From the NCBI GenBank assembly GCA_947258875.1, contig CAMYKB010000024.1, positions 1-34,744 on the forward strand: a DNA stretch of 34,744 bases. The letters are read 5' to 3'. The notes beneath the pieces were generated by a model that was not told the DNA's origin, ran no database searches, and saw nothing but the letters and a program-made list of their open reading frames with translations. Of this stretch, positions 599-5,000 are shown in pieces. The DNA is from an uncultured Gammaproteobacteria bacterium. GTDB lineage: Bacteria; Pseudomonadota; Gammaproteobacteria; CAMYKB01. Position numbers and translations under genes: made by a program. Each line of letters begins with the position of its first letter. The stretch's first letter is position 1.

Positions 599-789
599 GG
601 ATCAGGTCGTCAAATTATTTACGGATGCAGAAGTTAAATAGATGTTAGATATGACCTAAAAAGAATCAGGGTAGCACCAGCAGCCGGCACAGGGATTTTC
701 CATGTTTGGCCTTGAATATGATAATACGTGGAAATATAGTCCGTATACATGCAATAAATACATGGAAAACAGGTTCCGCGTATTAACAA
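599..789. other. Gene-free AT-rich stretch before the first attC-like region
   Basis: I see no convincing gene here. The stretch holds a perfect 10-bp inverted repeat, TTTTCCATGT at 696-705 and ACATGGAAAA at 760-769, separated by a 54-base AT-rich loop. A GTTAGAT at 644-650 matches the integron core consensus GTTRRRY but has no partner palindrome, so I give it little weight. Confidence 0.4.
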
Positions 790-834
790 GTTAGAGCGGA
801 ACGCTCGCGCAGTGCGCTCGCATTCCACTCTAAC
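790..834. repeat. Hairpin with GTTAGAG / CTCTAAC ends
   Basis: Positions 790-804 (GTTAGAGCGGAACGC) pair with 820-834 (GCATTCCACTCTAAC) with two mismatches. The same left arm also pairs with 878-891 (GCGTTCCGCCTAAC), and 828-847 pairs with 959-978 at 18 of 20 positions. The ends resemble integron core sites in the reverse arrangement. This looks like a rearranged or duplicated attC remnant next to the better site at 885-978. Confidence 0.5.
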
Positions 835-884
835 GGCTCCTGGCAATCGAGATTGCGCATGTCAGACGTCACGCTTCGCGTTCC

Positions 885-978
885 GCCTAACATGGGCAAT
901 CAACGCGACCTCGGAGCAACTGAATGTTTCGAGAAACTCCAATGCTCCTCGGCGCGTTATTGCCAGGAGCCGTTAGGC
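885..978 (+). repeat. attC-like recombination site (integron cassette boundary)
   Basis: The 94-bp stretch starts with GCCTAAC (885-891, R'' consensus RYYYAAC) and ends with GTTAGGC (972-978, R' consensus GTTRRRY). Between them the two arms form a long imperfect palindrome: GGCAATCAACGCG on the left pairs with CGCGTTATTGCC on the right with one unpaired base, followed by a GGAGC/GCTCC stem and a GTTTC-GA-GAAAC tip. Boxes at both ends, unpaired bases on one arm and a length near 90 bp are the known hallmarks of attC. The lipoprotein ATG follows 13 bases after R', as expected for a cassette gene. No integrase gene is in the window. Confidence 0.65.
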
Positions 979-990
979 AGGAGAAAGAAT

Positions 991-1770
991 ATGAGAATTT
1001 GCATACTGCTGATAATAATTGCGGCAGGCACGCTGCTACTCACCGGCTGTGAGGGGCAGGTGTCCATTGCGGAAAAGAATACGCTAGATGTTATTTTAAC
1101 TGGAGACTGGAATGCCACAGTCAAGAATGCAAAGCTTTGGACACAACAAGAACCTGATAACCCGGTGCCACACTTTCTTCTCAGCTTGGGATACAACTAT
1201 ACAGACCAGAGAGACAAACAACGGGCGGAACTGCGCATTGCATTTCGAGACTCTAACAGCGTTCAGGTCATAAAGAAATGGAGTGGTCGAGTGGCGGAAT
1301 CTAACTCTGGAAACGCGTACGCGCAATGGATTGATGGCGTCATTTATGAACAGTTGGAACAGATCCCCTCTGCAATTAGCAGTTACGAAAAGGCAGCAGC
1401 AATTGATCCCGCGTTTTACCTAACGCAACAAAGCTTGGGGACCCTGTATCTCTCGTCTCGCAGATTCGATGACGCGCTCCGGTGCTATGAAAGAATCGTG
1501 AAGTTGAAGCCCTATTATTCCGGCGGTTATCTGAATATCGCAAGCGTTTACATTCTTAAGAAGGACATGGATACTGCAATCGAATTCATGAAGAAGGCGA
1601 TTGAGGTGGCTCCCAATGACCTGACCGCAAACTATAATCTAGGAATGGCGTATTATGAAAAGGGAATGCACGAATACGCAAGGCAGAGATTTAAAAAGGT
1701 AGCCGAGATTGACCCGGGTGGGTCCGCGGGTGCTGACGCAAGGAGAATTCTCAGTCAGCTGGGTAGATAG
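991..1770 (+). CDS. TPR-repeat lipoprotein
   Basis: This 259-residue protein starts with a lipoprotein signal peptide: hydrophobic residues 3-18 followed by lipobox LLTGC, giving an acylated Cys near residue 20. The rest contains about four tetratricopeptide repeats (roughly residues 110-255), seen as spaced G.Y/A...Y..A...DP patterns such as AISSYEKAAAIDP and YNLGMAYYEKG. It is probably an envelope-anchored scaffold; the partner is unknown. I chose the ATG at 991 because it has GGCAGGAG upstream and begins the signal peptide; the in-frame ATG at 853 would read through the attC-like palindrome. It sits directly behind that site, as cassette genes do. Confidence 0.8.
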   Translation: MRICILLIIIAAGTLLLTGCEGQVSIAEKNTLDVILTGDWNATVKNAKLWTQQEPDNPVPHFLLSLGYNYTDQRDKQRAELRIAFRDSNSVQVIKKWSGRVAESNSGNAYAQWIDGVIYEQLEQIPSAISSYEKAAAIDPAFYLTQQSLGTLYLSSRRFDDALRCYERIVKLKPYYSGGYLNIASVYILKKDMDTAIEFMKKAIEVAPNDLTANYNLGMAYYEKGMHEYARQRFKKVAEIDPGGSAGADARRILSQLGR

Positions 1771-1938
1771 ATGAAACCGCTAAATAAAGTTCGGCGTGGC
1801 CCTGTCTTACAAGCAGCGGATAAACACGAACCGCCGCCCAGCGTTGTGCCGGGTTCTTTGGGCACTGATTTCATAGTCTGCGCCCGTCTCCGGCGTCGAT
1901 CGGCGATCTTATCCGAGGCAAAAGAAAGGAACAAAACA

Positions 1939-2310
1939 ATGCGCACGGTAATATCTTTCATAATTGCAGGAATGCTATTTATATCTGGATGCGGTGAGAA
2001 GGATAGCTCGCAGGTCATCAAAATAACCGATAGCCGTAGTGGCAAAGTCGTGATCGTTAAACGCGATGAATGTTTTAAAATTACTGGAAATCCACCGACA
2101 GTTTCTGTTCTTCCTCTTCGTCCTGAAGTGATCGGGGCAGTTCTATCACAACATGACAACTTCGTAGCCAAGGCGATGAAAGAACGCGAGTCAAATCCGA
2201 ACGCATCCTTTCTTCTCATGTCACTTCACGAATCAATGAGCCGTGGCAATTTAGAAAGTGTTGCTCAAAATATACTATATTATGAGTTCACTGGGGAAGC
2301 ACTTCCATGA
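1939..2310 (+). CDS. Small lipoprotein of unknown function
   Basis: The 123-residue product begins with a signal peptide ending in lipobox FISGC, so the mature protein would be lipid-anchored at a Cys near residue 18. No known domain is recognisable in the rest, which is mixed charged and polar with a short DSRSGKVVIVKRDECF segment. The ATG at 1939 has AAGGA about nine bases upstream; the longer in-frame opening from 1771 lacks a signal peptide and is rejected. The stop codon is 27 bases before the second attC-like site, the normal position for the gene in an integron cassette. It may share one cassette with the TPR lipoprotein, since no clear attC separates them. Confidence 0.65.
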   Translation: MRTVISFIIAGMLFISGCGEKDSSQVIKITDSRSGKVVIVKRDECFKITGNPPTVSVLPLRPEVIGAVLSQHDNFVAKAMKERESNPNASFLLMSLHESMSRGNLESVAQNILYYEFTGEALP

Positions 2311-2337
2311 CTTGAAGTTTTACCATATGGCAACATT

Positions 2338-2443
2338 GCCTAACAAGACAAATGCACTCGGACAGGTTAAAGCGTCACTTCTTTTGCAAAAAACGCAAAA
2401 TAAGCGCCACTTTAACCTGCCGTTGATTTGTGGCGTTTTAGGC
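2338..2443 (+). repeat. attC-like recombination site, second copy
   Basis: The 106-bp stretch opens with GCCTAAC (2338-2344) and closes with GTTTTAGGC (2435-2443). It folds into one long imperfect hairpin: ACAAAT near the left end pairs with ATTTGT on the right, CAGGTTAAAG pairs with CTTTAACCTG exactly across an intervening C/T change (AAAGCG against CCACTTT), and the tip is TTTTGC/GCAAAA. A CTCGGA bulge on the left arm faces CCGTTG. The right core box has two extra T compared with GTTAGGC, so it may be a decayed site. Its location, between a small lipoprotein stop and the TIR gene start 48 bases later, is that of a cassette junction. Confidence 0.65.
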
Positions 2444-2491
2444 ATACAATCGCTACTCGTAGATGCGCTTGAATCTTAGAATATATTGCAA

Positions 2492-3462
2492 ATGACGGAC
2501 ATATTCATTTCATATAAGCGAGAAGATAAGCGCTATGCGAAAATCATCGCAGAGTATCTTGTATATGAAGGGTATGAGGTATGGTGGGATATCGAGTTGC
2601 TTCCTGGCGAGCGATTCGCCGATGAGATAAACGAAGTTATTTCCAAAGCCAAACTGATTGTTGTCCTGTGGACTCCAGAAGCAATAGCTTCTGATTGGGT
2701 TAAAGCCGAAGCTACTGTCGGCTAAAGCGAAATAATCTAATCCCAATTATGCTCCGAAAAGTGGAGATTCCTGTCCCGTTTAATACCATACAGACACTGG
2801 ACTTTACCGAATGGGATGGTAATGGGCCCCCGCTTGAATTAGGCGCTCTGCTCAGACAAATAACCGAGAAGCGGGAAACTACGATACCGCAGCAAAAATT
2901 TGAATCGAAAGAGGAAAGACAGAAAGTACTCGAAAAGCCTGAGCATGAAGTTGAATTCTGGACATCGATCGCAAATACGGAGAAGCAAAGGGTTGAAGAG
3001 TATCAACTTTATCTCGAAAGATATGGAGAAGAAGGAAGTTTCTCTAAATTAGCCCATCGTAGAATTGTCGCGCTGAAACAGGTACCAAAGAAACCCACAA
3101 AAGCAAAAGAAAGCTTGGCTATTATCAGCATCGTAATGGGCATTGCAGTTGGAGTATTTACGATTGCCAACTTACTTGGTGCATTTGAGCACAAAAATCC
3201 CAAAGAAGCGAAGCTTGTTTGTTCTTATATAGAAATCAAAAAACTCGGTTGGTCAAGCAGCCGCAAGAGCAATTTTTGTATAGCTAATGGTTATGAGCAG
3301 GGCAATTTTAATCAGGGTGATTATAAGAACGGCGGTATATGCATGAAGGGCCCTGAGCCTGATGTATGCAAAGCCGCGTATACTGGTCGAATTGGTGATA
3401 ACGTCGAATGCCGTTCAGAAGGCTCATTAGTAAAATGTTTTGCCAAAATCGAGGATTCCTAA
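2492..3462 (+). pseudogene. TIR-domain membrane protein, interrupted by a frameshift
   Basis: The first frame (2492-2725) encodes the start of a TIR domain: DIFISYKREDK at the N terminus, YEVWWDIELLPGERF, and SDWVKAE, which holds the glutamate position used by TIR NADases. It stops at TAA 2723-2725. The second frame resumes at 2725 with KRNNLIPIMLRKVEIP and WDGNG, the normal TIR continuation, and runs to 3462. Restoring one base near 2722 (for example GGCCTAAAG) would give a 323-residue protein. After the TIR domain come a charged, probably helical stretch, one membrane segment (AIISIVMGIAVGVFTIANLL) and a Cys-bearing C-terminal domain of about 85 residues that I do not recognise. The stretch is AT-richer than the core genes. 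Either a recent pseudogene or a sequence error. Confidence 0.7.
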
Positions 3463-3485
3463 ACCTTTGTAGTTGGAAAAAAATC

Positions 3486-3537
3486 GGGGTCAGAAAACAA
3501 TTTCCACTAATATTAGAAACAATTGTTCACTGACCCC
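3486..3537. repeat. 52-bp palindromic element (GGGGTCA...TGACCCC)
   Basis: GGGGTCA at 3486-3492 is matched by TGACCCC at 3531-3537, with AACAATT (3496-3502) pairing AATTGTT (3519-3525) inside. The middle is AT-rich (CACTAATATTAG). One end lies exactly where the aldehyde dehydrogenase reading frame leaves its family sequence. The form resembles REP/MITE-like palindromes found between genes in gammaproteobacteria; no transposase gene is next to it. Confidence 0.6.
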
Positions 3538-4003
3538 AGTTATTGGCAGCGACCACACCAATGGGTTGCTTGATGACCACAAGCCGTCGATCCGACTGGG
3601 TTGCCGGGATAACATCTCCATAAATGCGCTTTGCCTCTTCAGCAAACCACTCGACGAAGGCAGCACCATAAGCAATCTCCCCGCGCGCTTCTGCCAACGG
3701 CTTGCCCATTTCCAGGGTCAGCAGCTGCGCCAGGTCTTCCTGATGCGTCATGATCAGTTCATACCAGCGCTTCAAAACAGTGGCACGTTGCCTGGCAGTA
3801 CGCGCACGCCACGCTGGCAGCGCCTGCTCTGCGGCGTTAATTGCACGCCGGGTTTCGGCACTGCCACAGTCCGCGACAGTTGCAATGACACGCCCATTGG
3901 CCGGATTGCGAATGTCATGGGTCGCTGCAGAATCTGCGCTTACCCATGCACCATCGATATATGCCAATTGTTGAAACAGTTTTGTGTCTTGCAATTTGAT
4001 CAC
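3527..4003 (-). pseudogene. NAD(P)-dependent aldehyde dehydrogenase (GabD-like), 3'-truncated
   Basis: Only the first 158 residues of a family normally about 480 long are present. They read as the N-terminal part of succinate-semialdehyde dehydrogenase-type enzymes: AYIDGAWV, NPANGRVIATVADC, LLTLEMGKPLAEARGEIAYGA, FVEWFAEEAKR and RRLVVIKQPIGVVAA. The family would continue ITPWNFP; here it becomes NNWGQ and stops, because the 52-bp palindrome begins there. The cofactor-binding core and catalytic Glu and Cys are all missing, so the product cannot be active. A GTG start at 4003 has a strong AGGAGG seven to nine bases upstream. The 5' end is intact, so the loss is a truncation. Confidence 0.85.
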
Positions 4004-4112
4004 GTGATATCCCTCCTGATTAGAGATCATCCCCGTATCAGGATGCAATAAATCAGAATATATAGCACTGTAGGTCGGTGTTCGCTGCATTCATCCCAGC
4101 CTCCAACACTAT

Positions 4113-5000
4113 TCATGCATACCTCGGCAGCACATAGGCCAGCGCCAATGACAGGGTGAGCAGGGCCAGCACATTACCGAACATTACGATTGCAGCGACC
4201 TTGGCGGGTTCCTGCGCGTAGCGTTCGGCAAACAGGAAGTTCAGCACCGCAGGCGGCAAAGCGCCGAACAGAAACAATGCACCGGCGTGCATCCTGGGTA
4301 AGTCGAGTACTTGCAACAACACCGCAGCTACTGCGACACCCAATAGCGGGCTTAGCAAGCCACCCAGCAGGCCGATCCTCCATTCATCCAAGTCAACCTT
4401 GGAAAGCCGCACACCCAGAGAGAACAACATCAAAGGCACTGCAATCTGACCTAGCATGTGCAGTGGCAAGTGAATGACCTGCGGCACTGTGAGGCCCGCA
4501 CCGCCGACAGATAATGCAGCAATGGCGGCGATGATCGTAGGTTGCACCAACATTCGCCAGACCTGGGGCTTGTGGTGCAGAATGTAGGTGCCGACACCAA
4601 AATGCGCAAGATTACCGACAAGGAACAATACCAACGCCACTGGCCAGACCTCATCACCAAAGGCCAACACCATCACGGGCAGTCCCAGGTTGCCGGCATT
4701 GCGAAATATCATGGGTGGAACCAGGGTTTTGGGCTGAATATTGAAAGCCCGGCTGAGCAACCATGCCGCAATACCCGAGACGCTGTAAATCACCACCGCT
4801 CCCAGCGCCAGCTGGCCGTAAGTCGCGACATCGAAGCTCTGTTTTGATAAGGCCGAAAACACCAGCGCAGGAACGAACACGTCCATGTTGATGCGATTGG
4901 CAACCTCCATATCCGTATGGAACAAACGGCCATAGATCGCACCAATACTCACAATGGCGAATACGGGAAAGACGATCTCGAGGATGCGAACTATCAGCAT
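4113..5000 (-). CDS. AEC-family (auxin efflux carrier-like) permease
   Basis: The 295-residue protein is hydrophobic throughout, with about ten predicted membrane segments starting at residue 5 (ILEIVFPVFAIVSIGAIYGR). It carries the FRNAGNLGLPV motif of the AEC / Membrane transport protein family near residue 100 and a matching half near the C terminus (PPAVLNFLFAERY). Members export or import carboxylates, malonate or amino acids in bacteria; the substrate here cannot be inferred. It is encoded just upstream of the truncated aldehyde dehydrogenase on the same strand, with about 110 bases between them. Length and ends fit the family. Confidence 0.85.
   Translation of the reverse strand: MLIVRILEIVFPVFAIVSIGAIYGRLFHTDMEVANRINMDVFVPALVFSALSKQSFDVATYGQLALGAVVIYSVSGIAAWLLSRAFNIQPKTLVPPMIFRNAGNLGLPVMVLAFGDEVWPVALVLFLVGNLAHFGVGTYILHHKPQVWRMLVQPTIIAAIAALSVGGAGLTVPQVIHLPLHMLGQIAVPLMLFSLGVRLSKVDLDEWRIGLLGGLLSPLLGVAVAAVLLQVLDLPRMHAGALFLFGALPPAVLNFLFAERYAQEPAKVAAIVMFGNVLALLTLSLALAYVLPRYA

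Follow-up and report, generated by a model that had tools for sequence, protein, structure and literature searches.

The window analyzed here is a 34,744-bp stretch of DNA that makes up the entire contig C24 of a 3.01-Mb, 67-contig genome of an uncultured Gammaproteobacteria bacterium. Near its left end lie two long hairpins with genes between and beyond them. The original prediction took these hairpins for attC sites and the region for a relic or distant part of an integron array. The question is therefore whether this region is a block of integron gene cassettes, and, if so, how cassettes came to lie there with no integrase gene beside them.

Two hairpins in the window have the form of attC sites

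Site A (885-978, + strand) reads GCCTAAC...GTTAGGC and site B (2338-2443, + strand) reads GCCTAAC...GTTTTAGGC, exactly where the original prediction had placed them, and each folds, as claimed there, as a single hairpin; the fold energies lie well below those of shuffled sequence. As single-stranded DNA, the bottom and top strands fold at -23.4 kcal/mol (z -4.6) and -22.8 kcal/mol (z -4.4) for site A, and at -30.6 kcal/mol (z -7.2) and -23.0 kcal/mol (z -3.8) for site B. Both sites have R''/R' boxes (RYYYAAC/GTTRRRY) and L''/L' arms, although the R' box of site B (GTTTTAG) is off the GTTRRRY consensus. The unpaired bases predicted on one arm are also present, in that each L'' arm has one additional base (GGCAATcAACGCG versus GGCAATAACGCG; ACAAATgCA versus ACAAATCA). 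Site A has an unusually long 3' spacer. Gene placement is likewise as described, with an ATG at 991, a stop codon ending at 2310, and the ATG of the TIR gene at 2492 giving spacings of 13, 27, and 48 bases.

With the IntI of this genome as query, 80 integrase loci were collected from other genomes, and an attC covariance model was built from 31 sites, 28 of them beside those integrases and 3 beside the IntI on contig C41, with the window sites left out. The underlying alignment contains the classical R'', L'', L', and R' arms with covariation, such as columns 18/159, which occur as AT, CG, and GC. This model found both sites, as the original prediction had anticipated. In the 34.7-kb window there were four matches at E up to 10, namely site A (25.0 bits, E 0.00064 in the window), site B (20.0 bits, E 0.0097 in the window), and two of 8.8 and 8.1 bits. 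Genome-wide, the 20 bits of site B are marginal (E about 1 in 3 Mb), so that the case for this site depends on where and on which strand it lies with respect to site A and on an R'/R'' match described below. A loose first genome-wide model scan listed neither window site. In a cruder, stem-only test, one of 60 dinucleotide-shuffled versions of the window reached the score of site A. An Rfam scan of the window gave no match.

It is very improbable that these palindromes are REP, MITE, or terminator hairpins unrelated to integrons. They share with such elements the form of imperfect palindromes in intergenic DNA; however, both fit the attC model, and neither was called as an intrinsic terminator. 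Moreover, each hairpin occurs once in the genome, and no copies of the two scattered outside cassettes were found.

The left end of attC site A is ambiguous (828 or 885), because inverted repeats are nested and interleaved in 790-978. Bases 830-847 are an exact inverted copy of 959-976 (100%), and GTTAGAGCGGAACGC (790-804) recurs, nearly unchanged but inverted, as GCGTTCCGCCTAAC (877-890).

attC arrays recur in the genome and follow the cassette rule

Further attC sites are present on at least eight other contigs. Matches to the model fall on C41 (three sites), C36 (five sites), C27, C31, C20, C22, C7, C38, and C34, with weak matches on C17, and the sites within each array are all on one strand. 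In the approximately 166 kb of the genome that were scored without filters, all matches of about 12 bits or more lie in an array or intI context.

The R' box that starts a cassette and the R'' box that ends it derive from one circle and are hence expected to be complementary. Over eight arrays, 8 of 15 R'/R'' pairs were perfect compared to 1.5 expected by re-pairing, and none of 10,000 shuffles was as good. Boxes were extracted automatically, and the few that were misread bias against the observed result.

Cassettes and cargo of the window

The window contains three cassettes, all on the + strand. Cassette 1 (791-972) has no evident gene and holds most of attC site A, whose alternative left end is at 828. 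Cassette 2 (973-2435) begins with R' GTTAGGC (972-978), which matches R'' GCCTAAC (2338-2344) at 7/7 positions. It contains two ORFs on the + strand, one for a TPR-repeat lipoprotein-like protein (991-1770; Pfam TPR families, best E 8.7e-23) and one for a small lipoprotein-like protein of 123 aa (1939-2310) to which no family was assigned. Because the boxes at 972 and 2338 match 7/7, we place both genes in one cassette. Cassette 3 (2436-3480) starts with R' GTTTTAG at 2435-2441 and has lost its right end; no recognizable attC follows its TIR gene, and the model found no match past 2443 in this region.

The TIR-domain gene (2492-3462, + strand) is split by a frameshift near 2720-2725 into ORFs at 2492-2724 and 2749-3462. 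Its first piece matches TIR_2 (E 4.9e-18, profile positions 1-73 of 122), and PADLOC gave matches to SAVED_TIR/ThsB-type TIR. Judged by sequence, this piece resembles the TIR domains of anti-phage systems, in a gene that is broken in the assembly; the frameshift (window 2700-2750) may reflect either genuine decay or a mistake in the assembly. The cargo named in the original prediction, two lipoproteins followed by a TIR gene, is thus present, with the amendments that both lipoprotein genes share one cassette and that the TIR gene is frameshifted and lacks its own attC.

The cargo of these cassettes is rare. The TPR gene had no relative at E 1e-20 in 55 other genomes, the small lipoprotein had none in 368 other genomes of the class, and the C-terminal TIR piece had one distant partial relative among the 368 genomes. 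Against plasmids, the cassette proteins matched generic TPR proteins only. The gene upstream of the block (1-598) is metallophosphoesterase-like by a weak Pfam match below the cut-off and had one plasmid match, at 24%.

The genome encodes one complete IntI on another contig

A whole-genome search with TIGR02249 (cut-off 265 bits) found one complete IntI, at C41:1670-2611 (508.7 bits, residues 1-314, no internal stop), in the translation of which the tyrosine-recombinase motifs GMRLME, GKGNKDR, HTLRH, and GHKDVKTTMIYTH are visible. The order on C41 is intI, a leader, three cassettes with three attC sites and one barstar gene, and the contig end; this is a sedentary chromosomal integron. Four degraded intI copies were found on C38, C17, C11, and C53. 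Matches on C7 and C29, with open frames of 306-307 aa, appear to be Xer-type recombinases. No intI match was found on C24.

The degraded intI copies at loci L012 (C38), L013 (C17), and L014 (C11) adjoin a leader several hundred bases long, also present at the right end of C3 (L192), whose copies are 70-97% alike. C38 and C17 have nearly the same first attC. This pattern suggests that one integron platform was duplicated repeatedly. At L015 (C53), degraded intI occupies 4460-4967, directly past glmS. The left end of C36 (L120, 1-2600) carries a five-site attC array at the contig start, and since the C53 right and C36 left ends have 26 bases in common and C36 opens with this array, C53 and C36 are probably one integron.

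The integron gene cassette block of the window covers bases 691-3480, with no integrase beside it. Its two attC sites lie 1.36 kb apart on the + strand. C24 has neither an intI match in the cluster nor the adjacent intI, attI, and array of a complete integron; on the left, the contig itself ends 690 bp before the leader described below. Given an intact IntI and attC sites on other contigs and cassettes with no intI in cis, we conclude that the block is very probably a CALIN (cluster of attC sites lacking an integron-integrase). Direct support comes from the form, strand, and order of the attC sites, the R'/R'' cassette rule, the intact IntI elsewhere, and a 100-bp leader that ends where the block starts. 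The central claim of the original prediction, an integron cassette block without a local integrase, stands on the model matches at both sites and on the intI of another contig.

A repeated leader opens the block

The leader is an element of approximately 100 bp (690-790, + strand) that starts 92 bp past the unrelated gene at 1-598 and ends in an attI-like core, TATTAACAAG|TTA (AACAAG|TTA). Copies of the leader (690-793) occur on C22 (93% identity), C1 (87%), and C7 (85-92%, with an internal deletion). The match stops at the same base on C24, C22, and C7, and within about a base of it on C1, and the left neighbors are unrelated at the different loci. On C24, C22, and C7 the leader runs straight into cassettes, and the arrays on C22 and C7 also lack an integrase. 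The fourth copy (L249 on C1, approximately 1080-1610, minus strand) has a decayed core (ATTAACTAAATTAG), is followed by a small membrane-protein ORF, and is flanked by inverted copies of another repeat; no attC was detectable beside it. Given that the 3-Mb genome has about ten attC loci, the location of three of the four leader copies just upstream of same-strand attC arrays is hard to ascribe to chance.

The junctions also follow the cassette rule. The R' of the first cassette after the leader is GTTAGAG on C24 (790-796), GTTATGT on C22, and GTTATAA on C7, which puts an attI crossover core (G|TTRRRY) at the start of the first cassette at all three loci. The start of the next attC is complementary to this R' at 7/7 positions on C7 (TTATAAC) and 6/7 on C22 (ACACAAC); on C24, the exact complement is CTCTAAC at 828-834 (7/7), and GCCTAAC at 885 agrees at 5/7. 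The leader core resembles the delta-attI1 consensus AAACAAAGTTRRRY (consensus from PMC12901181). The leader also holds sigma-70-like hexamers, identified by consensus match, at 712-740 (TTGAAT-17-TATAGT) and 697-725 (TTTCCA-17-GATAAT). The leader itself is not an attC, as it has no R'' box and no model match.

From the leader copies, the array junctions, and the delta-attI1-like core, we infer that the leader may be an attI-like acceptor for IntI, without an intI of its own and used in trans, a reading for which we judge the chances to be about even. None of the four leader copies adjoins an intI match. The leader has no similarity to the region beside the C41 intI, and the C41 integrase may therefore not be its user; nor is it similar to the second leader family of C38, C17, C11, and C3. 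Searches of plasmids, phages, and viral contigs found no relatives of the leader, and the fetched integrase loci gave none that was convincing. A stronger version, which we put forward tentatively and consider doubtful, is that this dispersed, four-copy element of approximately 100 bp is a portable attI with a landing core and a promoter, so that one integrase located elsewhere seeds and feeds several scattered integrase-less arrays.

The visible start of the block bears on whether it is the distal end of the C41 array, or another, split from its integrase by a contig break. On the side where such an array would join, both C24 and C41 reach a contig end, the attC orientation in the window is compatible with this arrangement, and draft assemblies do split integrons in this way (PMC9024848). 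However, the block begins inside C24, at the leader 92 bp past a different gene; the same leader opens the arrays on C22 and C7 well inside contigs; and the left end of C24 overlaps none of 125 contig ends compared, C41 included. The contig-end overlaps that were found are the 26 bp between the right end of C53 and the left end of C36 and several of 99 bp elsewhere. With its start visible at 690-790 and its leader common to other integrase-less arrays, the block is quite unlikely to be a cut-off distal array. Of the relic or distant array part in the original prediction, the array without an integrase holds and the cut-off distal part probably does not.

The leader could instead be an attI region left behind after deletion of intI, making the block the relic of a once complete local integron. 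Integrase decay is common in this genome, as the four degraded copies attest, and the other leaders on C38, C17, and C11 do adjoin degraded intI and are repeated. By contrast, the leader of the window is unlike those beside intI, and its left boundary is nearly the same at four places with unrelated neighbor genes and no trace of intI. Because independent deletions are not expected to stop at one point, we disfavor this explanation and regard it as possible but rather unlikely.

Similarly low is the likelihood that the cassettes inserted at attG-type genomic sites and that the leader is a small dispersed repeat holding a good one. Insertion of cassettes into genomes at attG has been reported (cited in PMC12444791 and PMC12901181), and the mixed neighbors and internal inverted repeats of the leader are MITE-like. 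On the other hand, a repeat split by cassettes should resume past the array, and no right-hand half was found for any copy, nor was any clearly empty leader copy with a common right side.

The right edge of the block

On this side, the block looks as if sequence was lost by deletion. A truncated gabD-type aldehyde dehydrogenase gene (3527-4090, - strand) retains the N-terminal third, and the rest was not found in this genome. At the edge lies a dispersed palindrome, GGGGTCAG...CTGACCCC (3480-3545), with approximate copies at C22:107522-107577, C22:25279-25346, C7:43297-43345, C7:44471-44504, C3:96644-96699, C35:9035-9078, C35:4569-4623, and C2:123043-123100. It lies at the right edge of a cassette block in two of about nine places. 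We rejected the idea that the palindrome forms the second end of a mobile unit, as most of these places have no attC within 1.5 kb.

Proposed origin and relation to known systems

If the leader does act as an acceptor, IntI would have been supplied in trans, either now from C41 or formerly from a degraded copy. As at attI, the folded bottom strands of the cassettes would have recombined with AACAAG|TTA, where the leader ends on the right, and the promoter-like hexamers of the leader could transcribe the first cassettes. The right end may have eroded later, with loss of the last attC and most of gabD, and breakage of the TIR frame; the palindrome lies at the scar. At present, the block is probably near-static, with cassette 2 a candidate for excision in trans; CALINs mobilizable in trans have been described (PMC12444791).

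CALINs are a known kind of locus and about as common as complete integrons, with 2961 CALINs and 2760 complete integrons in a RefSeq survey, in which more than one was present in 22% of genomes with IntI (PMC9024848). Cassettes without an ORF and cassettes with two ORFs have also been described (PMC12444791). The block shares with other CALINs at least two attC sites in an array on one strand, cassette genes between them, and no nearby intI; unlike these, it starts at a leader that is repeated before other CALINs of the same genome. No report of such a repeated leader before several CALINs of one genome was found in open-access text. Compared to sedentary chromosomal integrons (IntI, attI, and an attC array), the block has the same attC architecture, cassette rule, and cargo of unknown function, but it has no intI and its attI is putative. 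It resembles attG-site insertions (Loot et al. 2024, as described in citing papers) in that cassettes lie outside the integron platform, where IntI acting in trans presumably put them. It differs in its proposed acceptor, a conserved 100-bp element that has an attI1-like core, in place of scattered unrelated sites.

The less ordinary feature is thus the leader repeated before several CALINs, whose recurrence suggests a repeated landing site for cassettes, perhaps used by IntI in trans. The origin of CALINs is debated between loss of intI, split arrays, and insertion in trans. As several CALINs here have in common a leader ending at the crossover point, seeding in trans at a repeated acceptor becomes directly testable; should that idea fail, what remains is a cassette block of the ordinary, decayed kind.

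Other arrays in this genome carry, in or next to their cassettes, genes for an Antibiotic_NAT family acetyltransferase (L120 on C36, 3079-3882), a barstar (L011 on C41, 206-529), and a SUKH-type protein (L121 on C27, 4287-4565).
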